Shown in pieces: positions 30,504-55,820 of a stretch of 56,733 bases of DNA. The position numbers were made by a program, and so were the translations under genes. The stretch's first letter is position 1, and the number at the start of each line of letters is the position of its first letter. The stretch is from positions 1 through 56,733 of the forward strand of contig DAHVOJ010000007.1 of NCBI GenBank assembly GCA_027318865.1, written 5' to 3'. The notes beneath the pieces were generated by a model that saw only the letters and a list, made by a program, of their open reading frames with translations, was not told the DNA's origin and did no database searches. The DNA is from a bacterium. Its GTDB lineage: Bacteria > SZUA-79 > Acidulodesulfobacterales > Acidulodesulfobacteraceae.

Positions 30504-30580
30504 GGTGGATGTAGCTCAGCTGGTAGAGCCCCGGATTGTGACTCCGGTGGTCGCAGGTTCAAAACCTGTCATCCACCCCA
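30504..30580 (+). tRNA. tRNA-His (GTG)
   Basis: A complete cloverleaf can be drawn. The acceptor GTGGATG (30505-30511) pairs with CATCCAC (30570-30576), with the tRNA-His-specific extra G-1 (30504) pairing C73 (30577). The anticodon GTG is at 30538-30540 and the T arm is GCAGGTTCAAAACCTGT-like. CCA is encoded at 30578-30580. It is the integration site of GI-1: the 3' half recurs at 46398 and 50514. Confidence 0.98.
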
Positions 30581-30592
30581 CTTAAAACCGCA
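30532..30592 (+). repeat. attL: 3' end of tRNA-His and 12 bp
   Basis: The 61 bp from the anticodon stem to CTTAAAACCGCA are identical to 46398-46458. This is the left attachment site of GI-1. Confidence 0.92.
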
Positions 30593-30759: not shown

Positions 30760-31791
30760 ATGAATATATATAAGCGCGGCGATACCTATTGGGTCAAATT
30801 TATGATAAACGGTAAATTATACCAGCATTCCTGCCGGACGCAAGACAAAACCGTAGCTAATGAGATAGCGACCGCAATATATACCGATACTTTGCGCAAT
30901 CAATTTAATTTACCTACGAGAAACAAATCAGTATATATTTTTAAAAAAGTTTTTATCGAATATATAAAACAGCAGCAAAAGGGTAAAAACCTTGACCGTA
31001 AGATAATTGCCGCTAATCATTTCCTGCCGATATTTGAGAATAAAGAATTAAATAATATTGTTCAGGTTGACATTAAGAATTATCAGCTTCAAAGAAAGCT
31101 CGAAATTATGAACTTGCCGAAAAATACAGGTAAAAAAGAGAGCGAAATAAATTTTAGGTCTGTTAATCTTGAGATTATAACGCTTTCAAATTTCTTTAAT
31201 TTTTGTATTGAGCTAAATTATCTCGATAAGAACCCTGCATTTAAAATAAAAAAACTTAACGAATTATCCCGCCTAAAAACATTATCCGACGACGATATTA
31301 ATAAACTTATCGCCGGCGCTACGAATAAGCTTACCAGAGATTTAATTACGTTCCTGATTTATACCGGTTGTCGTAAAGGCGAAGCTCTTAACCTTAAATG
31401 GGACGACGTGGACTTGCAGAACGATATAATAGCGATTAAAGGCACTAAGACGAAGTATGACAGATATATTCCTATAAGCAAGCCGCTGAAAGAACTTTTA
31501 GGCGGGATTAAAAAGAAAGACGACTGTTTATACCTATTTAACGATAACGGGCGCAAGTTAGGCGATTTCAAGCGTTCCTTTCATACCGCTTGCAAAAATG
31601 CAGGATTAAAAGATTTACGCATCCACGACTTGCGCCATGTATTTGCAAGCAAAATGGTTATGAACGGCACGTCGCTTTATATTACCGGCGAGCTGTTAGG
31701 GCATAGGACGACGCAGATGACTAAGCGGTATAGTCATTTAGTGCCGGAGACTCTGAAGAAAGCGGTTGACGAGGTGTGGAATAATAAGTAA
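30760..31791 (+). CDS. Tyrosine-recombinase integrase of GI-1
   Basis: A 343-residue phage-type integrase. An N-terminal arm/DUF4102-like strand region (NIYKRGDTYWVKFMINGK) is followed by a SAM-like core-binding domain and the catalytic domain with TGCRKGEAL (Arg I, about 207), IHDLRHVFASKM (HxxR, about 290), LLGHRTTQMTKRYSHL (His III and Tyr, about 315-328). Location directly after tRNA-His indicates it recombines at the tRNA 3' end. Its C-terminal half is nearly the same as the integrase at 54777, while the N-terminal half is much more diverged. Confidence 0.96.
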   Translation: MNIYKRGDTYWVKFMINGKLYQHSCRTQDKTVANEIATAIYTDTLRNQFNLPTRNKSVYIFKKVFIEYIKQQQKGKNLDRKIIAANHFLPIFENKELNNIVQVDIKNYQLQRKLEIMNLPKNTGKKESEINFRSVNLEIITLSNFFNFCIELNYLDKNPAFKIKKLNELSRLKTLSDDDINKLIAGATNKLTRDLITFLIYTGCRKGEALNLKWDDVDLQNDIIAIKGTKTKYDRYIPISKPLKELLGGIKKKDDCLYLFNDNGRKLGDFKRSFHTACKNAGLKDLRIHDLRHVFASKMVMNGTSLYITGELLGHRTTQMTKRYSHLVPETLKKAVDEVWNNK

Positions 31792-36091: not shown

Positions 36092-36343
36092 TCAAATATT
36101 TATATTACCATTAAAATTATTACTATTCCTTTCGATGCTACGCCGTCTTAGAAGATAAATTATACCTGCTATTACAGCCAAGCCAAGAAGATAAGGCCAA
36201 ATTACTAAAAATAGCATGTAAAAGAACCACAGTAAAAAAATTGCAAACATTATTAATCCTAAAATAAAGCCAATTTTTAATACGTATTTTGTAACCCACA
36301 TACCTATAAGAAAACTGGCTAATGTGTCTACAGGCCTACCCAT
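36092..36343 (-). CDS. Small membrane protein, two segments
   Basis: An 83-residue protein. A hydrophobic block at about residues 18-68 forms two helices, followed by RRRSIERN and a polar tail. AAAGGAGGC precedes the ATG at ideal distance, so translation is likely. No family recognised. Confidence 0.72.
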   Translation of the reverse strand: MGRPVDTLASFLIGMWVTKYVLKIGFILGLIMFAIFLLWFFYMLFLVIWPYLLGLAVIAGIIYLLRRRSIERNSNNFNGNINI

Positions 36344-36409: not shown

Positions 36410-36516
36410 TACTTCCTACTGCACATATATGTGAAAGTATGGAGGGGGTAAATAAATCAGACGTCTTTTTTATTACTCCCTGCTGCAAATGCAGGTGAGA
36501 GTAAAGGAATAAATAA
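36410..36516. repeat. Two tandem 30-nt hairpins with compensatory changes
   Basis: Copy 1 at 36410-36439 and copy 2 at 36474-36503 share stem TACT(T/C)/(A/G)AGTA and an inner stem CCT(A/G)/(T/C)A.G. Two base pairs change on both sides (T-A to C-G; A-T to G-C), which indicates selection for the fold. Each copy is followed by TAAATAAATCAGA (36449-36461 and 36509-36521). They lie between the nuclease-like gene end and the small membrane gene start. Confidence 0.65.
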
Positions 36517-36552
36517 ATCAGATATTTATTTTCAAAATTTACCTCCACTTTC

Positions 36553-37410
36553 CTATAATTTCATCCATTTTTCTATATTTAGTTCTTCCCAATTTTCAAA
36601 GAGAAGATTCTTGGGAAGATTCTTCAAATTAAAGTCTTTTTCAGATATTTCAGATAGTTCAATATGTTTTACATAGTTATAGCGTACAGAATTAGAGCTT
36701 TCCCATTGTATTTTACGCGTATTAGTATTATTTATATACGAAATGAGTGGTTCAAAAGTTTCTTCATTTACACCATCAAAATACATAATTGAAAATTTAC
36801 TTTCGGAATTTTTGTTAAATTCTTCTATGGTTTTAAAGAATTCTATAATAGAATTTTGTTCTTTAAATTTTTCAAAATACGATTTGGGTGCAAGTAAAAT
36901 TAATTTTTCAATTTTCCCCCTATCAGATTTATCTAATTTTTTTAATAAGCAATAATCTTTTATAAGCTCTATGAAAGCATATAAAGGTGTATTAGCAGTT
37001 GTTTTGAGTTCAATTAAATATTTATTATCTTCCTCATTATGCTCATTATTTGAATATATTAAATCTATAGATTCTTTGTTGTTTGACCCTATGCATAATT
37101 GATTAAAAATTTTAAGATTCAAAAATGTAATAATACGTTCAAGGCTTTCTTCAAAAGATTTGAATTCTGGGAGGTTGGAATTTTTAACTATTGAAATTTC
37201 AGTATTTTTCTTAAGGTTTATTGTGCGCCCTCTCTCTTCTCTAGTTTTATTAATTTTAACTAAAGGAGATATTTTTTTTTCTAAATCTTCTTTTTCTTTG
37301 GAATGAGTGTAGTTATTCCAACCAGTTTTAGTGTCTATCCATCTTTTTTTAGCATCTATGCTTCTTTTATCACCTTGTAATTTTTCAATTATTACTCCCA
37401 TGTTTGACAT
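36553..37410 (-). CDS. PD-(D/E)XK-like putative nuclease, last gene of the operon
   Basis: A 285-residue protein with no name I can give. A charged N-terminal part (about 1-80) precedes a fold with D116 (SIDLIY), E134 and K136 (YLIELKTTANTP), the spacing of a restriction-endonuclease-like D...ExK site. The middle includes LILLAPKSYFEKF and FSIMYFDGV strands. GAGGAGG precedes the ATG at 37410. It follows the MBL nuclease by 75 bp and ends the operon. Likely a DNA or RNA nuclease, by inference. Confidence 0.72.
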   Translation of the reverse strand: MSNMGVIIEKLQGDKRSIDAKKRWIDTKTGWNNYTHSKEKEDLEKKISPLVKINKTREERGRTINLKKNTEISIVKNSNLPEFKSFEESLERIITFLNLKIFNQLCIGSNNKESIDLIYSNNEHNEEDNKYLIELKTTANTPLYAFIELIKDYCLLKKLDKSDRGKIEKLILLAPKSYFEKFKEQNSIIEFFKTIEEFNKNSESKFSIMYFDGVNEETFEPLISYINNTNTRKIQWESSNSVRYNYVKHIELSEISEKDFNLKNLPKNLLFENWEELNIEKWMKL

Positions 37411-37485
37411 TATAGATCCCTCCTCAATATTGGTTATTTAATTAAAATTTATTTTGATTTACACAAAAATCTCACAATTTAACTA

Positions 37486-38703
37486 TTAAACCTCCATCAC
37501 CTCCCCGTTTTTAAGTATTTTAACCTTTTCAAAGCTTTCAAACTCTTCTGGATTTGCGGTATGAACTGGAATTATCACCTCCGGATTTATATGGTTAATA
37601 AACTCTTCTAAATCTTTTTTTGAAGTATGGCCAGATATGTGTATAAACTTATACGGAATATTATATGTTTTAATGGATTTCTGAATTTTGTCTTTTTCAA
37701 AATAGCCTCTCCACATTGAATATATTAAAGAAGATTTATCAAAAAAATGATTTTCTTCAAGAATACTTTGATAAGAACCTTTATAAAATAAAACATATTG
37801 TTGTGGGTTTTTTGCTATTGTTTCGGGTATGCGTCTATGTTTTTTATACGGTTCTAATATATCAAATAATTTATCGTTTTTAACTTTCCTCTTTTGAGAA
37901 TAATTTAAAAAAAGATGCACCTTGTCCCAAGTTCCGTTTGGTATGTTTTCATTATTTATATTGCGTAATATTTCTAAAGTATAAAGATCCGTTAAAATTT
38001 CTCTGCCTGCTTTCAGGGCTGCTTTGTAAGCAGTTACTAATCTGTCTATGTTAATACTTGAAAACGCAATTAATGATAAGCCTTCAGTGCCTTTTATAAA
38101 ATCGACCATTTCGGGAATTAAATCTTCTTCATTCATACGTTTGTCGTCTGAAGACGCTATATTAGTGCCTTCCGCTAAAAGGACATCTATTTTTGGAAGT
38201 TCCTTGTATAGATTTTTGGTCATATATCGTTTTCTTCCGGTAAATCTTATGTCTGCGGTATAAAAAATAGATTTTTTGCCGTCGGTTATGTAAAAGGCAT
38301 GGGCGTCATAAACGGAATGGTCAATAAGATAAGGTATAACGGTAAATGGACCGCATTTAATTTCCTCTTTGTCTTTAAAGGTTTTAACATTTTCTAAATT
38401 AATGCCTTTATCGTAAAATAATTGAGCCGTTTTTAATATATTTAAAGACGGTTCTCCCATATATATAGGAATATTTGAAACGTTTTTTAAACTTCCGTAA
38501 TGGTCGGCATGGGCATGGCTTAAAAATATTGCCAATATATTGGTGTCCTTTTTAATGGATTCAAAATCAATTAGTTCGGGATTTGGGTCTTCTATTTCCG
38601 ATAATGGAATGCCGGCGTCTAAAAAAATACTTTGGCCGCCTAAAGAAATTTGTATGCAGTTACCGCCTATCTCTTCGGCGCCTTTTAATATTTTTATTTC
38701 CAT
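37486..38703 (-). CDS. Metallo-beta-lactamase-fold nuclease (RNase J/beta-CASP-like)
   Basis: A 405-residue MBL-fold protein. LSHAHADHYGS (about 61-71) is the HxHxDH zinc site; YLIDHSVYDAH, FYTADIRF and the later HISGHTS and IPVHTANPEEF complete the ligands and the beta-CASP-type motifs B and C. The KGAEEIGGNCIQI start is like RNase J and CPSF73-type enzymes. It lacks their KOW or other RNA-binding extensions. ATG 38703 follows GGAG; an ATG four codons earlier is possible. It lies 46 bp after the ATPase gene. Probable nucleic-acid hydrolase. Confidence 0.88.
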   Translation of the reverse strand: MEIKILKGAEEIGGNCIQISLGGQSIFLDAGIPLSEIEDPNPELIDFESIKKDTNILAIFLSHAHADHYGSLKNVSNIPIYMGEPSLNILKTAQLFYDKGINLENVKTFKDKEEIKCGPFTVIPYLIDHSVYDAHAFYITDGKKSIFYTADIRFTGRKRYMTKNLYKELPKIDVLLAEGTNIASSDDKRMNEEDLIPEMVDFIKGTEGLSLIAFSSINIDRLVTAYKAALKAGREILTDLYTLEILRNINNENIPNGTWDKVHLFLNYSQKRKVKNDKLFDILEPYKKHRRIPETIAKNPQQYVLFYKGSYQSILEENHFFDKSSLIYSMWRGYFEKDKIQKSIKTYNIPYKFIHISGHTSKKDLEEFINHINPEVIIPVHTANPEEFESFEKVKILKNGEVMEV

Positions 38704-38749
38704 AATTGTCTCCATTTAACTCTTTTAAATTAATATTAGAATAGATTAA

Positions 38750-40405
38750 TTAATTTTGCAATAGATTTATTTTTTTAATCCCCCATTTTCCGTTTGCAAG
38801 CGTATAGTAGCATTGACCGACTTCTAAGCTGGCTAAAGGTCTTACGTCTATTACGTGCGGGTATCCCGGTTTTTCAGGAACGATAGATCTGATTAAGTTT
38901 TTTAGTTTTGGGTCCTGACTTCTAAAGAAAAACCTGTTGGCGCAATTTATCGTTATTATATCTACAACGTTTTCAGCGTTGCCGTAATTAATGAGCTGAT
39001 TAGAGACCGCATTTAAAAGAGACTGATAGGATTGGGTCGCAAGAATACATGAGATTTTATAAGCCCTGCAGATGTCAAGAAAATTTTGTTCGCCCGTAAT
39101 AGTATCTCCGGTTATGTACTTATGGAATTCGTCGCTAATATAGAAGGCGGGAAAATTTCTTTTGCCGGCTTCGTAGGTTGAAAGCATAAACTTAAAAAAT
39201 TTAGTTTTTAAAATTGTGCCTAACATTCCTTCTATTTTGGAAATTTTAAGCGTAGGAGAAAAAATAATTATTTTATGATTTAATATGGCTTTTTCTATAT
39301 TTAAATATTTTTTGTTATTCTTATCTTCATTATATTCATCGAAAGGATCAAGCCAAATTTTTTTATTTAAATCGGTGGAAGAATAATCCGAAATAAATGG
39401 GGATAGCGTAAGTATTATGCTTCCATAAGTTTCTTTGCCTAAACTTTTGCTGTTGATTAAAAAGCCGGAACCTCGCAAGTTGCCGACTTTTTGTTCGTCT
39501 GATATTGAAATGTTTGGTGGTTTTGTCGCGTTAGAAGTTGAATTTGCCCTGTTTGCTCTAAGTTTTTCTTCTAAATTTTTATATTCTGCTTTTTCTTTTT
39601 GATCGCCTGACGTTTCGAAATTATTATTAACTCTCACATGCGGTCTTCTAATTTCTTCAACTTTGTTTTCTTGAGGTTCTTCTTTATTACAGTTTGAAGC
39701 AACTTCATCGGTTTTATTTTCATCATCTGGTATTAAATCGCTTATCGTTTTAATAATTTTGTAATATTCTCTGTTGAGACCCGCGCTAGTAACTATAGTG
39801 CTGATATAATCTATAAATTTTTTAAAATTAATAAAATAAGGCTGGTCGTCCGAAATGCTTAGTTCTTGTTTTGAAATATATTTGCTTTCTTCTAATGCTT
39901 TCCATAATGATTTACCTGTTATATTTCTTACAGATTCATCAAACTGAATTATATTTCTGATAAAAACGGAGGCAAACTGAAACCACTCCCTATTTCTTGA
40001 ACCAAAATTATTACTGTTAAAAGAAGGGCTTAAGGTTATAAGCATTTCTATCTTGTCTTCCAAAGATTTATCTCTGTCGCCTTCAAAAAAATCGAAAATA
40101 TATTCTTCTTCAAAATCTATAATTCTATTTAATGTATCTTCGTCGTCTTTATATGATTCTTTGATAAACTTTTTTAGCTCGCTTAGTTTGGGATCTACCA
40201 CTAATACGGAAGCGCTATTCTTTTCGTCTTTATTATTATATTCTATAGCGGCTCTTAAAAGCGGTTTAATGATAGATACGGTTTTACCAGAACCTGTTTC
40301 GCCTATTATAAGAAAATGTCTTTGCATTACGTTTTCTAAAGGGATAGGATAGTTATCTTCAAAAATATTTTTAAGTACCGGAATTTCGAAAGTATTGATA
40401 TACAT
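38750..40405 (-). CDS. VirD4/HerA-like P-loop ATPase
   Basis: A 551-residue ATPase of the VirD4/TraD/HerA-FtsK superfamily. Walker A GETGSGKT at residues 35-42, Walker B FYISDE at about 421-426, sensor ILATQSYQSLL (about 454-464), and a TraD-like ending with INCANRFFFRSQDP. A low-complexity, polar insert (about 230-310) with Glu/Asn/Lys lies between the two halves. It lacks transmembrane helices seen in true coupling proteins, so it is probably cytosolic. Strong AAGGAG site. Could pump DNA, or work as the motor of the operon's system. Confidence 0.88.
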   Translation of the reverse strand: MYINTFEIPVLKNIFEDNYPIPLENVMQRHFLIIGETGSGKTVSIIKPLLRAAIEYNNKDEKNSASVLVVDPKLSELKKFIKESYKDDEDTLNRIIDFEEEYIFDFFEGDRDKSLEDKIEMLITLSPSFNSNNFGSRNREWFQFASVFIRNIIQFDESVRNITGKSLWKALEESKYISKQELSISDDQPYFINFKKFIDYISTIVTSAGLNREYYKIIKTISDLIPDDENKTDEVASNCNKEEPQENKVEEIRRPHVRVNNNFETSGDQKEKAEYKNLEEKLRANRANSTSNATKPPNISISDEQKVGNLRGSGFLINSKSLGKETYGSIILTLSPFISDYSSTDLNKKIWLDPFDEYNEDKNNKKYLNIEKAILNHKIIIFSPTLKISKIEGMLGTILKTKFFKFMLSTYEAGKRNFPAFYISDEFHKYITGDTITGEQNFLDICRAYKISCILATQSYQSLLNAVSNQLINYGNAENVVDIITINCANRFFFRSQDPKLKNLIRSIVPEKPGYPHVIDVRPLASLEVGQCYYTLANGKWGIKKINLLQN

Positions 40406-40424
40406 AAATTTTTCTCCTTAAAAA

Positions 40425-41141
40425 TTAATATTTTTTAATTTCGTCAATTAAATAAAAATTATATGCAATAATCGGATCTATAAATGTGTTTAAGGCAAAT
40501 AGTTTTGAATAAATATCAAAAAGATTAGATAATTTTTTATTTGATTTAATATCTTTTAGATTTTTAATCGACGGAACTTTTTTAATTTCACGTTGAAGTT
40601 TGCCATACAATTCATCTAAAGTTTTATTTGAAAAATCACATAAATCGTATTCTTGAAGACCATAATCGTTTTCATTGCGGTATTTATAACATTCTATCGC
40701 CGAACTGACTATAATATTTAAAATGCGGTTATCAATAGCTTCTAGCTCCTTTGATAGATTTTTAAGAGACGTCTTATTTATACTTCTTTTTTCAAGCCAG
40801 GCTTCGTGAAATAACATCATGCTATTTTCATAGCAAAATCTGTTGCCTATGTCTCCTAAAGCGCTTATGACGGCCGCAGCGCTTGAAGCTTTAGAAAGAA
40901 CTAATGTAGATATCTGAGCTTTGTTTTTCCAAATGGAAAGTCTTTCAAGATAAAAATCAAGGTAAGAAATTTCTCCTCCGGGAGAATCTATCTGTATCTC
41001 TATTTTATCGTATTTGTAATAGTCAAGGCAGATTTCTATGTCGTTACATAGTTTAAAAATGCTGTTTTGGTTTATTTCGTCAAGCAATTTTACTACTCCT
41101 ACATTTTGCTCGAAATTAATTCTCGGAATATATTGCTCCAT
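40425..41141 (-). CDS. ClpP/SppA-class serine protease-like protein
   Basis: A 238-residue crotonase-fold protein of the ClpP/SDH type. IQIDSPGGEISYLD (SPGG at 53-56) forms the oxyanion region, KASSAAA (Ser 86/87) holds the likely nucleophile and MLFHEA (His 112) the base. A later Asp completes the triad. It lacks the usual ClpP N-terminal loops, so oligomer form is unknown. AAGGAG before ATG; 16 bp after the regulator gene and 19 bp before the ATPase. The ATPase could feed it substrates. Confidence 0.85.
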   Translation of the reverse strand: MEQYIPRINFEQNVGVVKLLDEINQNSIFKLCNDIEICLDYYKYDKIEIQIDSPGGEISYLDFYLERLSIWKNKAQISTLVLSKASSAAAVISALGDIGNRFCYENSMMLFHEAWLEKRSINKTSLKNLSKELEAIDNRILNIIVSSAIECYKYRNENDYGLQEYDLCDFSNKTLDELYGKLQREIKKVPSIKNLKDIKSNKKLSNLFDIYSKLFALNTFIDPIIAYNFYLIDEIKKY

Positions 41142-41157
41142 TTTAGACTCCTTAAAT

Positions 41158-42618
41158 TTAAGATTTACTTTTTTCTTTCTCTTTCCAATTAGGTTTTATT
41201 CTTTCTTCTAATATTTTTTGAGCTATTTTCTCTCCGCCTTTAATCTTATATAAATCCAAATAAAGCTGTATGTCTGATACGACTTTTGTTTCATAGTGAA
41301 TTAAATGGTTAGGTTCTTTTTCAAATTCGTTTTTAACGGTTTGGATTTTGTAAAAAACGTCTTTTCCTAATTTGTCGGCATAGTCTTCGTCTAATGAGGG
41401 CTCGTCTTCAAAATAATCACCTTCCTTATTTAAATTTTCTATATTATTTTTAGACTCCTCTAAAACAATAAAATTTGCCCTTGAAGAACTTACGCGCGAT
41501 AAATCTAATTCCATCTTTAAATCGTATAAAGGGTCTATTTTTGAAGTACTGTTAAGAGAAGTATATTTTATGTAAAAAAATAGTTTATTATTATTAATCA
41601 TTTCTTTATCAGGAATATTTTTTAAAACTTCATAAGCTCCTGAAAATAAAGTTAGAGCGTAGTTAAATGAACCGTAATTAAAATCATTTTGCATAGTATT
41701 GCAAAAACTTTTAAGCCATTCATTGGCAATAAAATTTTTAGCGCCGTTGTTTTTGGAATCTAAAGACTTATTAAAAAAATAATGAACTTTATTGTATTTT
41801 TTAAATGAATAATTTTTAGCCCATTCATCAAGTATCAGTTCGGCAGTTTTAATGTCCTTTATGAAAAAAGTCTTCTTGTTTTCTTCAATCCATCCATTAA
41901 CTGACATCCCCTGCTTGATTTTTGATACCAACCCAATACTAACCCCGGTTATTTTGGATAAATCTTTAACATAGAATTTTTTAAATGGATTAATAAGCAT
42001 TACCCTAAATACTCTGCTTGATTTTGGCGAAAAAAGGGATTTTAGAGATTTATTTTCCGGTTCTGATTTATTGATAATTCTTAAACCTAAATCGTTTCTT
42101 TTATCGACGAAAACGTTTTTAAAAGACAAAAATATATTGCCGTTATAATCTATGCTGCCTATTCCGTAATTTTTATAATTTTCAACCTTTGCCTCGTTTA
42201 AATAAGGTGCGACGACGATGCCGTAAATGTCTTTATCATCTCCTATAAATTCTTTAATTCTTAATATGGCCCGATCTGCATATATTTTGCCGTACTTATC
42301 TTGATACAATAAAACGAATTTGAAAGGCGAATTTGAAATTAAAACTTCCAATACTAAAAAATTAATTTTGAAAACTTCGCTAAAGGATAAATAGCTTTTT
42401 TTGATTTTAATAAAAGGAATTTGCGAAATGACAAATTTTACTTTATCAATAATCTGAATCATCTCGGAATATTTATCGCTATTTTCGTTTTCTTTGCCCT
42501 TTTCGTTGTCGGTTGAATCGATTGAATTCATTTGATTGTTTATTTGGTTTAAATTGTTTACTTCATTATTTACTTCTTGGTTAATTTTGTTTTTATTTTC
42601 ATTATTTTCATCCTGCAT
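41158..42618 (-). CDS. HTH protein with AbiEi-like ends, first gene of the operon
   Basis: A 486-residue protein. An Asn/Glu-rich tail (1-50) is followed by a nuclease-like sheet with GIGSIDYNGNIFL (about 152-164), then a winged helix (about 210-250) with VKDLSKITGVSIGLVSKIKQ. The C-terminus has DIQLYLDLYKIKGGEKIAQK, like the end of AbiEi-type antitoxins. It probably binds DNA, and the three TGTTTCA sites in front of its gene are candidate targets. Whether it is an antitoxin-like regulator or a sensor cannot be told. The ribosome site is weak. Confidence 0.72.
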   Translation of the reverse strand: MQDENNENKNKINQEVNNEVNNLNQINNQMNSIDSTDNEKGKENENSDKYSEMIQIIDKVKFVISQIPFIKIKKSYLSFSEVFKINFLVLEVLISNSPFKFVLLYQDKYGKIYADRAILRIKEFIGDDKDIYGIVVAPYLNEAKVENYKNYGIGSIDYNGNIFLSFKNVFVDKRNDLGLRIINKSEPENKSLKSLFSPKSSRVFRVMLINPFKKFYVKDLSKITGVSIGLVSKIKQGMSVNGWIEENKKTFFIKDIKTAELILDEWAKNYSFKKYNKVHYFFNKSLDSKNNGAKNFIANEWLKSFCNTMQNDFNYGSFNYALTLFSGAYEVLKNIPDKEMINNNKLFFYIKYTSLNSTSKIDPLYDLKMELDLSRVSSSRANFIVLEESKNNIENLNKEGDYFEDEPSLDEDYADKLGKDVFYKIQTVKNEFEKEPNHLIHYETKVVSDIQLYLDLYKIKGGEKIAQKILEERIKPNWKEKEKSKS

Positions 42619-42898: not shown

Positions 42899-43513
42899 AT
42901 GATAATTACGGAAGATATGTTCGTCATATCGGATACTCATTTCGGGGATTTAGATTCCGTAGAAAACGCTTCCGATAAATACTTAGTAGATAATTGGAAT
43001 AAAACCGTCTCAGAAAACGATACCGTCCTGCACCTTGGAGATTTTACTTTAGACGATAACGATAAAGCGCTTAAAGAAAAGATAATAAAATACGGCAACC
43101 TTTTAAGCGGAAGGATATTGCTAATAAGGGGCAACCACGATACGGCTCCTGCAGGAGTTTATGAGTTAGCGGGTATAGAATTAGTGAACGAATTTAAAAA
43201 TCCGTGGTGTTCCGCTGTAACCGGAACGGTTAAGAATAAAAAGATACTTTTTTCGCATTATCCGATTATAGATTTATATTCAATTTTAAATACGCTGACT
43301 TATTTCACAAATAAACACGACTACAACAATTACCCGGATGAGAACCCGTTTAAATTCCCGATAGAACAGTTAGAGGAAATATTCATTAAGAACAAATTCG
43401 ACATTAACATCCATGGACATATTCATAATAAAATAAAACTTTTCGATAATCTCATAAACGTCTCTCCTGCTAATATAGGGTATTCGCCGGTAAAATTAGG
43501 AGATTTAATTTAA
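42899..43513 (+). CDS. Calcineurin-like metallophosphoesterase
   Basis: A 204-residue phosphoesterase with SDTHFGD (about 11-17), LHLGDFTLD (about 46-54), RGNHD (about 80-84), FSHYPI (about 119-124) and HGHIHNK (about 176-182), all metal ligands of the family. Close in form to YfcE-like and phage-type members. It is divergent from the five-gene operon and shares its promoter region, so it may be part of the same system (for example, hydrolysing a nucleotide signal) or a passenger. Confidence 0.92.
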   Translation: MIITEDMFVISDTHFGDLDSVENASDKYLVDNWNKTVSENDTVLHLGDFTLDDNDKALKEKIIKYGNLLSGRILLIRGNHDTAPAGVYELAGIELVNEFKNPWCSAVTGTVKNKKILFSHYPIIDLYSILNTLTYFTNKHDYNNYPDENPFKFPIEQLEEIFIKNKFDINIHGHIHNKIKLFDNLINVSPANIGYSPVKLGDLI

Positions 43514-46397: not shown

Positions 46398-46458
46398 CGG
46401 ATTGTGACTCCGGTGGTCGCAGGTTCAAAACCTGTCATCCACCCCACTTAAAACCGCA
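46398..46458 (+). repeat. attR of GI-1 / left end of GI-2
   Basis: A perfect 61-bp copy of tRNA-His 3' end (30532-30592). The 5' half of a tRNA is not present, so it is not a functional tRNA. Confidence 0.93.
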
Positions 46459-46538
46459 TATTTTATAAGGTTTTTCCGTTTTAAGCACTTATCATATTTA
46501 ATCAAATAATACCATTTTTTACCCATTTTTGTCTTTTT

Positions 46539-46595
46539 TATGGCGAGATTTTCACATAGGTGATATAATATTCCCATGTGAAATTCATGAAAAAG
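46539..46595. promoter_or_regulatory. TTTCACAT inverted pair around TATAAT
   Basis: TTTCACAT (46550-46557) and ATGTGAAA (46576-46583) flank TATAAT (46564-46569). A promoter with an operator is likely, but no gene starts directly on the plus strand after it. Confidence 0.4.
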
Positions 46596-46622
46596 ACTTT
46601 GGGAATTTACTTTATGGATTTG

Positions 46623-47492
46623 CTACTTCTTAAAAGTTAAACTTTTATATATAGCGCACATATCTTCATCCTTAAATTCATCGTATCCTAAAATATAAGA
46701 GTTGTTTATTGCGGAAGTTAAAGGAGAAAATACCTTGAATTCTCCAGAAAGTTTAACGGCAAAATCTAAATCCTTCTGCATATGCTTATATGGAAAATTG
46801 GTTTCATAATTATTTTCTATAATATTTTTCCCTTTCAGCTGAAACATCTGATTAGCAAATGCACCGGAATTCACAATATCATAAATTACATTATCGTCCA
46901 ACCCTATTTTTTTAGATAAATTTAATCCTTCGGCTAAAGCGCCCATCGTAATTCCCATAATCTGATTATTTATAATTTTCAGATATGACGCTTTGGGAAT
47001 ACCGCCAAGATACATAACTCTTTTACCCATCATATTAAAATAGTCTATCAAAAGGTCATACGCCTTTTTATCTCCGGCGGCTAAAATTATAAGAGTCCCT
47101 TCTTTTGCGGGAATCTTGCTTCCTATGACCGGAGCTTCAAGAAAAAGGGACGCCGGGGATTTAATCTTTATTTTTTCAAAGAGCGCAACCGAATAATCGG
47201 GCTCTATCGTACTCATATTTATTATTGTTTTTTCACCGTCTAAACCTTCCAGCAGCCCATAATCGCCGTCCGTTATATTGGAAACCGCTTTAGAATCCGA
47301 TAGCATAATAATTATAATGTCGCTTTTTTTTGCAACATCTTTTGGGGAATCTAAAAATGTTGCGCCTTTCTTTATATGCTCTTTGGATTTTTCTTTAGTT
47401 CTATTGTAAACATTCAGCGCTACGCCGTTTTTCAGTAAATTTAACGCCATAAAATTTCCCATTATACCTAATCCTATAAAGCCTATTTTCAT
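46623..47492 (-). CDS. Beta-hydroxyacid dehydrogenase (3-hydroxyisobutyrate/GLYR type)
   Basis: A 289-residue NAD(P)-dependent dehydrogenase. GFIGLGIMGNFMALNLL (about 4-20) is the Rossmann start, VYNRTKEK (about 29-36) suggests NADP preference, EAPVIGSKIPAKEGTL is the substrate loop and KIINNQIMG has the catalytic Lys. Likely reduces glyoxylate, succinic semialdehyde or a 3-hydroxyacid. A GGAG site precedes the ATG. A metabolic gene as island cargo. Confidence 0.92.
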   Translation of the reverse strand: MKIGFIGLGIMGNFMALNLLKNGVALNVYNRTKEKSKEHIKKGATFLDSPKDVAKKSDIIIIMLSDSKAVSNITDGDYGLLEGLDGEKTIINMSTIEPDYSVALFEKIKIKSPASLFLEAPVIGSKIPAKEGTLIILAAGDKKAYDLLIDYFNMMGKRVMYLGGIPKASYLKIINNQIMGITMGALAEGLNLSKKIGLDDNVIYDIVNSGAFANQMFQLKGKNIIENNYETNFPYKHMQKDLDFAVKLSGEFKVFSPLTSAINNSYILGYDEFKDEDMCAIYKSLTFKK

Positions 47493-47910
47493 TATTTTTT
47501 TAATCTCCGTGCTATATATGTTGCATGTTACCCTTTAATATAGTTTGTAATTTATATCTTTTACATAATAATTAATTATAGCATATTTTAATTTATATAA
47601 TAGCCGCTTAAATCTTCAATATCTTTTAAAAGCCCTCTTTTTTATAGTTCTCTATATAATCCAGAAACCACTAATTCCCGCCGGTAAGTTTTAACGACTT
47701 TTTAATGGTATTATACTTTCAAAGCGATTTAACGCCGGTATAATAAATATATAGGAGAACGAATTAAAAAAAAGTATCTCGCAAGAAAAGGTATCTGAAA
47801 AATTTGATGCTTTCTGAAAAAAACAATTGACGGTGGGGGGGGGGGTGTTATATCATGATGTAGAAACATTTAACCTGTCAGTTTAGTATAATTAAACTAA
47901 CGCTAAAAAA
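47493..47910. other. Intergenic region with G11 tract
   Basis: 418 bp without a gene. A run of 11 G lies at 47835-47845. TATAAT at 47887-47892, inside GTTTAGTATAATTAAAC, may drive the decayed GGDEF gene. Confidence 0.5.
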
Positions 47911-49850
47911 ATGGGCAAAATTTACCGGCAAATTCGGAATAAAGTTTTATTATCCCTTAAGAGCGGCAATATGCCGTACCTTGCAGGCATCTTGTCCGTT
48001 ATCGTTATATTATTGATTTCTTCCGTCCTGTTCTTCACAGGTCCTATTCGCATAAAAAAAATTTCCTCTTTTAATTTAAACCTTTTATCTAAAACCATAA
48101 TATTAAACGACGACTTAATGCATATAAATATGAAGACAGGCAAGGTTATATATTACACTTCCTTAAAGATGCCTTTAAAACCGCAAAGGATACGCTTGGT
48201 AATGGCTTTAAACAGATTAAAAGCCTATGTCGCTAAAACCGATATGCAATAAAAAAACTTAATTCATTTATTAAAAAAAACGGCAATTTTCTGAAAAATA
48301 ACCGAAAAATAGTAAAATACTTCAATAAATCATATTTCCAATGGAAAAATGTCAGCGAGCCGATTCTTAACGCAATTTTGAAATATCCCAAATACGTATC
48401 GTCCAGAATTTCATACAAGTTTTTTCTAAAACACACCTTTTTATCTTTCTTATCTGCCTACTCTGAATATTCTCAAAGAAGAAAAAACGACCTTTAGAAC
48501 TACCATGGGAATGGCTGTCCGTTACTTTATTACAGCCGTCCTTATCGCAATATTTTTTATCGGCCTATTTTTTTGTTTTACCGGCAAAATCCACAAAGCT
48601 TTATTGGTAAGCGAACGGAGATTTAATCTTTTTTCTATAGCCTGCCCTTAGTATCCTTTATCTTAGACGTGGAAACGGGCCATTTTATAGATGCGGATGA
48701 TTATGCCGTAAATTTTTACGGCTATTCCAAGGAAGAGCTTCTGAATATGGATATAGGTAAAATAAATATTTCCGCCAGTCTGGACGAACAGAGAAAATTC
48801 AGAATGAGGGCGGCGGAAAAGGGGCATGAAACCGTTGTTTTTAAACACAGGCTTAAAAACGGCGCTATAAAAACGATTCAGTCTTTTATAACCGTTATTC
48901 AATCAGACGGCAAACCGCATCTTCTTGTTATTGTTATCGACATAACGAAAAAAATAGCTTCGGAAAAAGCCCTCAAAGAATCCGAAGCACTTTTTAAAAC
49001 GGCGACGGAAAATTTAGTTACGGGGATAGTCCTTTACCGGGAAAAGTATATTTACGCAAACCCTATGGCAGAAAAAATACTTGGATATCCTAAAGAAGAA
49101 CTTTACCAAAAATACGTCTGGGATATTTACCCCGACGAACGCGATAAATTATTAGTAAAACAGGCTATAACAAAAAGGCTGGATGGGGAAATCTTTGACG
49201 CCGTATATACTTTAAAAATTCTGACAAAGCAAAACGAGGAGATCTGGCTTTTAATATCGGCTTCTACCGTGAAATACGGGGATAAATACACAGCTCTTGC
49301 AAGTTTTATCGATAATACCGAACAGGTTTTAAAAGAGCGGAAAGTTTTAGAGGAAAAAGAAGAATACAAAGCGCTGTCGGAATACGATCCTCTCACGGGG
49401 ATTTATAACAGGAGGGCGTACGACAACAGACTGCTTGAGGCGCTCAGCGCGGCGGGAAGATATAAAAGGCAGTTATCGTTAATAATGTTCGATATAGACT
49501 ATTTCAAGGAAATTAACGATGCTTACGGACATCAGGCAGGCGATACTATTCTTTTTGAACTTGCAAGTTTAGTTCAAAAAAACATAAGAAAAGACGATTT
49601 TTTTGCAAGGTTCGGCGGGGAAGAATTTATGATAATATCTAATTCGGGCGTAAAAGGCGCTGCCGAACTTGCCGAAAAATTAAGGTTCAAAATAGAAACG
49701 TATGATTTCCCCCTAAAAATAAACGTCAAATGTAGTTTCGGGGTGACGAGTTATAAGCATGGAGATACTGCGGATACTATAATAAAAAGAGCCGACGACG
49801 CCTTGTATGAGGCTAAAGAAAACGGCAGAAACAGAGTGAAAACCGTATAA
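47911..49850 (+). pseudogene. PAS-PAS-GGDEF diguanylate cyclase, frameshifted three times
   Basis: The original protein would be about 640 residues: an N-terminal membrane helix (LAGILSVIVILLISSVLFF), a periplasmic part, a second helix (YFITAVLIAIFFIGLFF), two PAS domains and a GGDEF domain with FGGEEF. It is broken by frameshifts near 48249-48255 (A7), near 48484-48495 (A6) and at T6 48632-48637. Reading across them joins KTDMQ to KKLNSF, SQRRK to TFRTTMGM, and SERRFNLF to FYSLPLVSF, the last being a typical PAS start. The part from 48669 is still open and could make a soluble PAS-GGDEF fragment. Confidence 0.8.
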
Positions 49851-49859
49851 GAGAAAAGA

Positions 49860-49931
49860 GAGAAAAGGGGACGGATCTATTTTTATTCGTGTTTGAAAAC
49901 GAAAAATAAAGGTGTCTGCCCCCTTTTTCTC
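49860..49931. repeat. Long imperfect hairpin repeat
   Basis: GAGAAAAGGGGACGGATCTA pairs with the inverse of GTGTCTGCCCCCTTTTTCTC around an A/T-rich stem. It is like dispersed GGGGACAGA..TCTGTCCCC elements. It directly follows the GGDEF gene stop and could end its transcription. Confidence 0.55.
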
Positions 49932-50216
49932 AAAATAGACGGATCCAAAGACGTGGAAGAAGAACGGAAATTTGCGTTAAATGCCATAGATATTTTTTTA
50001 TCCAAAAGAACCCTACCTTTTCGTCAAAAACTGGAACGACATCTATAAGGCTTCAAAACCTGGCAAAAAGACAGAATGGACTAAAGAGCGCGTAGAAGAA
50101 ATTCTTAAGGAGAACGATTATAATATGACAAAAGCGGCTAAGACTATCGGAAATACGAAACAGTTTATCAGCTTCCTGGCAAAAAAGTTCGGGATTAAGA
50201 AACCGAGCAAGGCATA
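49932..50216 (+). pseudogene. Fis-type HTH protein, decayed fragment
   Basis: IDGSKDVEEERKFALNAIDI is followed, after a frameshift near 50010, by YLFVKNWNDIYKAS, then WTKERVEEILKEN and NMTKAAKTIGNTKQFISF, a Fis-like helix-turn-helix C-terminus, ending at TAA 50214-50216. The N-terminal part is lost. It looks like the tail of a regulator. Confidence 0.5.
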
Positions 50217-50513
50217 AAAGGCAACAAATTATATCTTGAAAAAATTTTTTACAGTTTTTACAGTTTGGAATTTGATTAAAAAGTCGATAAAATAGTAATA
50301 TAATGTATATTTTAAATGTAAAATATAAAAGGTGATTTATTATGGAAGGATGCGAAAAGGTAGACATTAATGAGCGGTAGGATAATTTTAGTTGATAATA
50401 TTAAAATTGTTATGTTCTAAGTTCTTAATAGTTATGGCTGAATTTTCACATAGGCAAGTTTCACATAGGCAAAATTATTTAATAAAATTAAATAGTTATA
50501 AAGCAAGGGCTTT

Positions 50514-50581
50514 GGATTGTGATTCCGGTGGTCGCAGGTTCAAAACCTGTCATCCACCCCACTTAAAACCGCAGTAAATAA
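50514..50581 (+). repeat. Third tRNA-His 3' fragment (attR of GI-2)
   Basis: Matches the tRNA-His 3' end from GGATTGTGA to CCGCAGTAAATAA with one change (C to T at 50523). The similarity continues past it (CAATATCCTAT and TTGAC), as after the real tRNA, so the DNA to the right looks like the left end of another, degraded element. Confidence 0.88.
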
Positions 50582-50600
50582 GACATATTCAGACAATATC

Positions 50601-52971: not shown

Positions 52972-53056
52972 TGGTGCGTCTAGCAGGATGAGCACAAACG
53001 GTATGCGTTTGTATGCTGGACTTCGTCGAACTTGCGACCCACAGCTTAGAAGGCTG
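52972..53056 (-). repeat. Disrupted tRNA-Arg 3' fragment
   Basis: The minus strand has the 3' part of the tRNA-Arg seen at 54563, but about 36 bp (52989-53025) with an AGCACAAACG/CGTTTGTATGCT inverted repeat is inserted in the T arm. It is an old or modified attachment site, not a tRNA. Confidence 0.7.
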
Positions 53057-54562: not shown

Positions 54563-54613
54563 TGGTGCGTCCAGCAGGATTCGAACCTGCGACCCACAGC
54601 TTAGAAGGCTGTT
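54563..54613 (-). repeat. tRNA-Arg (TCT) 3' fragment, attachment site
   Basis: The minus strand reads the anticodon arm ACAGC-CTTCTAA-GCTGT, the T arm GCAGGTTCGAATCCTGC, the acceptor 3' strand and CCA. The D arm and 5' acceptor are missing, so it is the distal att copy of an element that inserted in tRNA-Arg. The intact tRNA should lie beyond the right edge. Confidence 0.82.
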
Positions 54614-54776: not shown

Positions 54777-55820
54777 ATGGCAAATATCTATAAAAGAGGC
54801 GATATTTATTGGTATCAAATACGTCTTGACGGACTCAGGTATCGCGGCTCTACCAAAACCGACAATAAAAAACTCGCCCAGCAAATCGCAAATACAATCG
54901 AAGCCGATTTGGTCCGGAAAAAATTCAGCATGCCGGTTAAAAATAATTATATATTTTTGACGGCGTGGGAGCAATACAAAAAAAGTCTTACAAATATCAA
55001 TAGGACGATTAAAAATAAAGAGTTTGCCGCTAATCATTTTTTACCTGTTTTTAAAGACAAGAACATCTCGGAAATTACACAATCCGATATTAAAGAATAT
55101 CAGATAAAAAGAAGATTGGAAGTCTTATCTTTGCCAAAAAATCAACTAAAAAAGGAAAGCGAAATAAACTTCCGTTGGATTAATCTTGAAATTTCAACCT
55201 TACATCATTTTTTTAATTTCTGCATTGAAAAGGAACTCATAGAAAAGAATCCGGCGGCCGGCGTTAAAAAACTAAATGAGCTGTCCAGGTTAAAAACTTT
55301 ATCCGATTCCGACATCGGGAAGCTCATCGGCAGCGCTACGAACAAATTGACCCGGGATTTAATAACCTTCTTAATTTATACCGGCTGCCGGAAAGGGGAG
55401 GCCTTAAATCTTAAATGGGACGACGTGGACTTGCAGAACGACGTAATAGCCATTAAGGGAACCAAGACGAAGTATGATAGGTATATTCCTATAAGCAAGC
55501 CCCTGAAAGAGCTTTTGAGCCACATTAATAAAATTCAGGACTGTTTATACGTATTTAACAAAAACGGGGCTAAATTAGGCGATTTTAAGAAGTCTTTCCA
55601 TACCGCCTGCAAAAATGCGGGATTTAAGGATATGCACATTCACGACTTAAGGCACGTCTTCGCGAGTAAAATGGTAATGGACGGGACGTCGCTTTATATC
55701 ACGGGGTCACTGTTAGGACACCGGACGACGCAGATGACGAAAAGATATGCTCATTTAAAGCCAGAGACATTAAAGAAAGCCGTTGACGACGTGTGGGATA
55801 AGAGCGATAAAAAAGGTTAA
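54777..55820 (+). CDS. Tyrosine-recombinase integrase, sister of the GI-1 enzyme
   Basis: A 347-residue integrase. The same layout as the one at 30760: NIYKRGDIYWYQIRLDGL strand start, core-binding domain, TGCRKGEAL, HIHDLRHVFASKM and LLGHRTTQMTKRYAHL. From LNELSRLKTL onward both proteins are almost identical even in DNA, while the first 90 residues differ more. It lies 160 bp from the tRNA-Arg fragment, so it probably targets tRNA-Arg. It differs in target but shares its catalytic half. Confidence 0.95.
   Translation: MANIYKRGDIYWYQIRLDGLRYRGSTKTDNKKLAQQIANTIEADLVRKKFSMPVKNNYIFLTAWEQYKKSLTNINRTIKNKEFAANHFLPVFKDKNISEITQSDIKEYQIKRRLEVLSLPKNQLKKESEINFRWINLEISTLHHFFNFCIEKELIEKNPAAGVKKLNELSRLKTLSDSDIGKLIGSATNKLTRDLITFLIYTGCRKGEALNLKWDDVDLQNDVIAIKGTKTKYDRYIPISKPLKELLSHINKIQDCLYVFNKNGAKLGDFKKSFHTACKNAGFKDMHIHDLRHVFASKMVMDGTSLYITGSLLGHRTTQMTKRYAHLKPETLKKAVDDVWDKSDKKG

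Follow-up and report, generated by a model that had tools for sequence, protein, structure and literature searches.

A five-gene operon on a tRNA-His integrative element joins Clp-type peptidase and nuclease genes and may be a mobile defence cassette

In a 56,733-nucleotide stretch of contig DAHVOJ010000007.1 (hereafter the window), part of the 1.46 Mb draft genome of a low-GC uncultivated bacterium of the Acidulodesulfobacterales (assembly GCA_027318865.1), we found an operon encoding an AbiEi-like protein, a ClpP-like peptidase, a soluble ATPase of the VirD4/HerA type, a metallo-beta-lactamase (MBL) nuclease and a protein with a PD-(D/E)XK motif (hereafter PDX). We read it, tentatively and with somewhat less than even confidence, as a mobile anti-invader (defence-type) cassette in which an exchangeable nuclease pair would be controlled by an ATP-dependent Clp-type protease and an AbiEi-like regulator. 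The five open reading frames (ORFs) of an earlier preliminary description were recovered on the minus strand at 36553-42618, all in one direction and closely spaced, with intervals of 16, 19, 34 and 75 bp; the third becomes 46 bp, as first described, when measured from an internal MBL ATG whose ribosome site is better than that of the outer start. Most operon starts are preceded by Shine-Dalgarno-like GGAG or AGGAG sequences, in agreement with the good ribosome sites described before.

The operon is flanked by a 61 bp attachment (att) repeat and its perfect copy (Table 1), from which we conclude that it is cargo of an integrative element of ~15.9 kb and that its earlier placement in a tRNA-His island was correct. 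The island proteins scanned comprise recombinases, a transposase remnant, a DUF2130 protein and a metallophosphoesterase, with no relaxase or mating gene among them, again as described.

Mobility of the cassette and exchange of its last gene are also seen in relatives, for which 30 genomes of this small phylum were sampled. In a second genus (genome G007), the cassette is found in three pieces on separate contigs. The first (C110) carries the ATPase, MBL and PDX genes in window order, with DNA 96% identical to that of the window; as the three genes are 95-100% identical across genera, their transfer was recent. The second (C136) retains the last 41 codons of the MBL gene (127 nt) at 100% identity, followed by a different PDX gene and then by sequence 94% identical to C110. 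The third (C2) has the AbiEi-like gene at 67% identity, a ClpP::ATPase internal deletion and a different 154-aa gene, after which come the same downstream genes. Since these copies share their flanks and differ in the last gene, the last position is an exchangeable slot. In a further, sister genus (genus-5, genome G028, locus L091), an MBL gene of 51% identity and yet another PDX gene lie 513 bp 3' of a ClpX-like gene, whose product scores 252 bits to ClpX, under the equivalog cut-off, and keeps IGF at the ClpP-docking position while its GYVG pore loop is altered.

For the first four genes, the preliminary description had proposed an AbiEi-like helix-turn-helix (HTH) protein, a ClpP-class protease, a VirD4/HerA-like ATPase and an MBL nuclease, and all four assignments were borne out, the first refined to an AbiEi-type antitoxin without its usual AbiEii partner and the third to a soluble relative of conjugation coupling proteins. 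Gene 1 matches by tblastn proteins annotated 'type IV toxin-antitoxin system AbiEi family antitoxin' (E values down to 6e-15, 25% identity), with no Pfam match; its HTH lies at about 205-255 and its C-terminal segment reads 'SDIQLYLDL'. No AbiEii nucleotidyltransferase gene adjoins it, whereas its homologs elsewhere do have AbiEii. Gene 2 matches the ClpP profile (E = 8.5e-13) and, when aligned to housekeeping ClpPs of relatives, has an intact S87-H112-D159 triad and about 70 extra aa at the C-terminus. A phage head origin was considered for this gene and rejected, the match to head maturation proteases reaching only 2.5e-7 and no other phage structural genes being found. Gene 3 matches DUF87/HerA (1.8e-6), CD1115 VirD4-like (7e-8) and TraG-D models, with Walker A at 35-42, Walker B at D425/E426 and a low-complexity insert at about 230-310. 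It is soluble, with no transmembrane segment or other membrane anchor; it is not an AAA+ protein, and no AAA+ unfoldase with an IGF/IGL loop is present in the window operon. Outside the cassette, the ATPase is closest to coupling proteins of the same phylum and to one from a type IV secretion system (T4SS) locus of Bacteriovoracia.

Gene 4 matches Lactamase_B_2 (1.7e-11), with RMMBL, and the RNase J family (7.6e-26), the match to the ComEC type being only 0.035; the motif residues D33, H67/H69/D71/H72, H133, D155, E182, H359/H363 and H385 are all present. Gene 5 has no family, Pfam or PDB match. Its motif, D116...E134-L-K136 (D-x(17)-E-L-K), and its position next to the MBL gene suggest a PD-(D/E)XK nuclease, so that the earlier assignment keeps these two points in its favour and has no profile or fold match independent of them. 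By hhalign, the PDX protein of the window has no significant homology to the other PDX families; the motif is shared, the subfamilies differ.

The MBL-PDX pair occurs well beyond the phylum. Full-length MBL relatives of about 27-33% identity adjoin a PDX gene in plasmids (Ochrobactrum, Rhizobium, Sphingomonas, Cereibacter, Cupriavidus and Butyrivibrio), in one contig of a viral collection and in genomes of the Clostridia-containing phylum. The PDX gene stands beside the MBL gene in 16 of 19 loci, two of them judged by eye (L036, and L026, where a spurious ORF intervenes); the three without it are L029, L106 and L107. The motif was present in 14/25 same-strand MBL neighbours versus 12/151 other ORFs (Fisher p = 1e-7, a descriptive value because the motif was picked after some of these proteins had been seen). 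The two genes, which probably encode DNA- or RNA-cutting enzymes, form a conserved, widespread and independent module, apparently unnamed, copies of which are carried on rhizobial and gut-bacterial plasmids. In the extra-phylum loci compared by phmmer, no ClpP-like, AbiEi-like or VirD4-like relative was found nearby. Other genes accompany such loci: a small gene of 131-158 aa lies directly 5' of the MBL gene in rhizobial-type loci (L026, L027 and L107; motif 'GIFW...EHFPRGRVNWRE.....YLLLADR') and is a possible third component of the module; an HTH/WYL-type regulator, a control gene other than the AbiEi-like gene of the window, is frequent (L047:5270-6004, L061:10066-10722, L036 and L031); and a 642 aa von Willebrand A-domain protein follows the pair in one genome of the Clostridia-containing phylum (L064:2150-4078).

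One can picture the cassette as follows. The MBL/beta-CASP nuclease and the exchangeable PDX nuclease would be the effectors, and the ClpP-like peptidase with the VirD4/HerA-type ring ATPase would be the control unit, under an AbiEi-like DNA-binding regulator. In a healthy cell the nuclease pair would be inactive or unexpressed; upon infection or plasmid entry, the ATPase-peptidase would remove an inhibitor, possibly the AbiEi-like protein, or process a nuclease, and nucleic acid of the invader, the host or both would then be cut. Nucleases as effectors and the HTH protein as controller, the roles first suggested, seem plausible. That ATPase and peptidase make up one machine is an inference, as is all that is sketched here of trigger, substrates and a role in defence; that a VirD4-like ATPase may serve the ClpP-like peptidase is an analogy with Clp proteases. 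The preliminary description had left the ATPase either to bind or pump invader DNA or to feed the protease, and the ClpX-like gene 5' of the pair in the sister genus favours feeding and disfavours pumping. The most economical view is that in this phylum the nuclease pair has come under the control of Clp-type proteolysis, and that ATPases of two kinds are encoded upstream of it.

Several findings weigh against the defence cassette as pictured here. No ATPase of the FtsK/HerA/VirD4 kind is known to us to act as a protein unfoldase for ClpP, and the AlphaFold models of genes 5 and 2 are of low confidence (pLDDT 35 and 37, respectively). In G028 the contig ends inside the ClpX-like gene, and this gene, 513 bp away from the nuclease pair, may belong to another operon. 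Wide co-occurrence of the whole set failed to appear, the set being confined to two genera of one phylum and contiguous only in the window. Neither a protease nor an ATPase is linked to most MBL-PDX pairs, so that in general the pair can do without the protease. Finally, the gating insertions of protease-controlled MBL nucleases are absent from gene 4 (409 aa, versus 398-434 aa in protease-free relatives); direct activation of the MBL by cleavage is less likely for that reason and was dropped, and a better fit is that the protease removes an inhibitor, for instance the AbiEi-like protein. A bolder version, rather doubtful as a whole, is a Clp-like machine built on a DNA pump: a conjugation-type VirD4/HerA ring ATPase would power the ClpP-like peptidase, which in turn would activate an MBL/PDX pair whose nuclease slot is swapped between mobile copies. 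Were this true, immunity controlled by proteolysis would gain a new class of system, and ClpP a new type of ATPase.

The co-occurrence evidence comes from few genomes. Searches for the ATPase and ClpP in plasmids, like the scans of viral contigs, gave no relatives beyond the phylum; none of the ATPase were found in phages or in 300 genomes of the Clostridia-containing phylum; and searches for ClpP, AbiEi and MBL in 241 Bdellovibrionota-type genomes gave two AbiEi matches only. A genome-wide scan, limited to close relatives because it was built from window peptides, returned G007 and one coupling protein in a Bacteriovoracia T4SS; a further hit (L035) was a false positive due to a chance DEFHKYIT.

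Alternatively, the ATPase could be a DNA pump that captures invading DNA and feeds it to the PDX and MBL proteins, while the ClpP-like peptidase merely regulates, for example by removing the AbiEi-like protein. This is an ATPase family that moves DNA, the closest relatives are conjugation coupling proteins, and in the published HerA/FtsK capture systems, DndFGH and BREX-related capture among them, ATPases of this sort are coupled with nucleases and winged HTH proteins (PMC10853773, PMC12839542). We nevertheless consider this arrangement unlikely, if not strongly so: MBL-PDX pairs occur elsewhere without any HerA-type ATPase, the ATPase encoded upstream of the pair in the sister genus resembles ClpX, a protein unfoldase rather than a DNA pump, and ClpP, MBL and AbiEi are unmentioned in one of the two capture-system papers (PMC10853773). 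Less probable still is an addiction or stability module, in which the AbiEi-like antitoxin would restrain the downstream enzymes and these, once released, would kill any cell from which the element is lost. AbiEi relatives do act as antitoxins, with AbiEii toxins as their partners, and the G007 cassette adjoins what, judged from sequence, are pairs of the MNT-HEPN and AbrB-PIN types, but here the AbiEii partner is absent, five genes with a protease and an ATPase would be elaborate for the purpose, and the G007 copy with the ClpP/ATPase deletion keeps its AbiEi-like gene intact.

It is quite improbable that the AbiEi-ClpP-ATPase and MBL-PDX parts are two unrelated cargo modules, adjacent by chance. 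The MBL-PDX pair does occur mostly alone, and the other part is also found as a deleted remnant with another downstream gene; on the other hand, a different Clp-type ATPase gene lies 5' of the same pair in a third genus, and the ATPase-MBL-PDX order is kept in the second genus at about 95% identity, although recent transfer limits the weight of this last point. A DNA-transfer accessory module, with processing enzymes and a coupling protein borrowed from a conjugative element that help to mobilise the island, would agree with the kinship of the ATPase to coupling proteins but is very unlikely, given an ATPase without a membrane anchor, no relaxase or mating genes among the island proteins scanned, and relatives of the ClpP-like, AbiEi-like, MBL and PDX proteins in 0/15 T4SS neighbourhoods of relatives; with no T4SS genes nearby, a conjugation module was likewise dropped.

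Downstream of the operon, the gene for an 83-aa membrane protein is constant among related copies while the nuclease gene before it varies, and its product is a possible sixth component of the system. The interval between it and gene 5 holds one member of a family of palindromic intergenic repeats of 60-86 bp, others of which lie at L093:1102-1168, 1519-1604 and 2857-2941; one copy forms a strong hairpin (z about -6). Repeats of this kind beside element genes could be akin to miniature inverted-repeat transposable elements and an aid to gene exchange. Integron cassettes were considered and dropped, the repeats being palindromes without evident attC core sites. A metallophosphoesterase gene (window 42899-43513) is divergent from the operon, and genes for such enzymes lie directly 3' of the MBL gene in Prevotella and Cereibacter plasmids (L029 and L030). 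The att repeat recurs with one mismatch at about 50514-50573, and a second, tandem element of ~4.1 kb occupies the same tRNA-His site (window 46398-50586, between the att repeats at 46398 and at ~50514); its genes include one like that of 3-hydroxyisobutyrate dehydrogenase and one for a PAS-GGDEF protein. Next to a third integrase gene (54777-55820), a stretch of 31 bp on the minus strand is directly repeated (97%; 53026-53056 and 54581-54611); the repeat resembles the anticodon-to-T-arm part of tRNA-Arg(TCT) and is probably another att pair; ARAGORN found no tRNA at these sites.

Table 1. Positions, in the window, of the operon genes and of the features that accompany them
Feature	Position	Strand	Basis
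attL: tRNA-His 3' end (tRNA 30505-30580) plus 12 bp	30532..30592	+	61 bp repeat
Tyrosine integrase of the element	30760..31791	+	profile match 5e-27
83-aa membrane protein gene, 3' of the operon	36092..36343	-	kept in every related copy
Palindromic repeat in the interval from gene 5 to the 83-aa gene	36473..36535	-	more copies beside genes in G007
Gene 5, PDX (putative nuclease), 285 aa, exchanged effector slot	36553..37410	-	motif D116, E134, K136; position beside MBL
Gene 4, RNase J-like MBL/beta-CASP nuclease, 409 aa	37486..38715	-	profile matches; motif residues
Gene 3, soluble VirD4/TraG-HerA-superfamily ATPase, 551 aa	38750..40405	-	profile matches; motifs
Gene 2, ClpP-like peptidase, 238 aa	40425..41141	-	profile match; triad by alignment
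Gene 1, AbiEi-type antitoxin/regulator, 486 aa	41158..42618	-	tblastn to AbiEi-family antitoxins; G007 copy
attR: perfect 61 bp copy of attL, end of the ~15.9 kb element	46398..46458	+	repeat match

None of the systems in PADLOC or in the literature searched combines these parts, and the statement that no named system fits therefore stands. PADLOC gave no significant full-length match; all that it returned were matches of a generic ATPase kind (mad8 2e-8, HerA 3e-5) and one weak match, over 44 aa, to PDC-M05A. The literature gave no system with this gene set, a weak negative since subscription journals and bioRxiv were thinly covered. Single parts have clear counterparts. Gene 1 belongs with the AbiEi family of the AbiE type IV toxin-antitoxin systems, whose AbiEii nucleotidyltransferase toxin is absent from the window. 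The MBL protein shares the fold and the metal and beta-CASP motif residues of RNase J but, at about 410 aa, lacks the RNase J C-terminal domain and is PDX-linked. The peptidase resembles that of ClpXP in fold and intact triad, and the G028 locus adds an IGF-bearing ClpX-like gene 5' of a nuclease pair, whereas the window ATPase is of the VirD4/HerA type and not AAA+. With the HerA/FtsK capture systems the operon shares an ATPase of that superfamily taken from mobile elements, along with nuclease and winged HTH partners, but in place of DndH, Orc/Cdc6, D5, PglZ or another named partner it has ClpP-like and MBL proteins. The closest published parallel is that of Tuck et al. (2025, PMC12799240), who describe nuclease-protease pairs in Hachiman (HamMAB), AVAST, Lamassu, DRT and canu loci; there, too, an MBL-fold nuclease lies beside a protease in mobile, modular immune loci, several with a linked NTPase. 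In that study, protease-controlled MBL nucleases move between immune systems, those of HamM and AVAST are activated by direct cleavage, and further proteolytically controlled enzyme pairs in immunity are suggested. In those loci the MBL belongs to the DNA-uptake type and bears gating insertions, and the protease is trypsin- or caspase-like, whereas the window combines an RNase J/beta-CASP-type MBL lacking such insertions with a ClpP-class protease and adds the PDX and AbiEi-like genes; it is thus a concrete candidate for such a pair, with another class of protease and another subtype of MBL.

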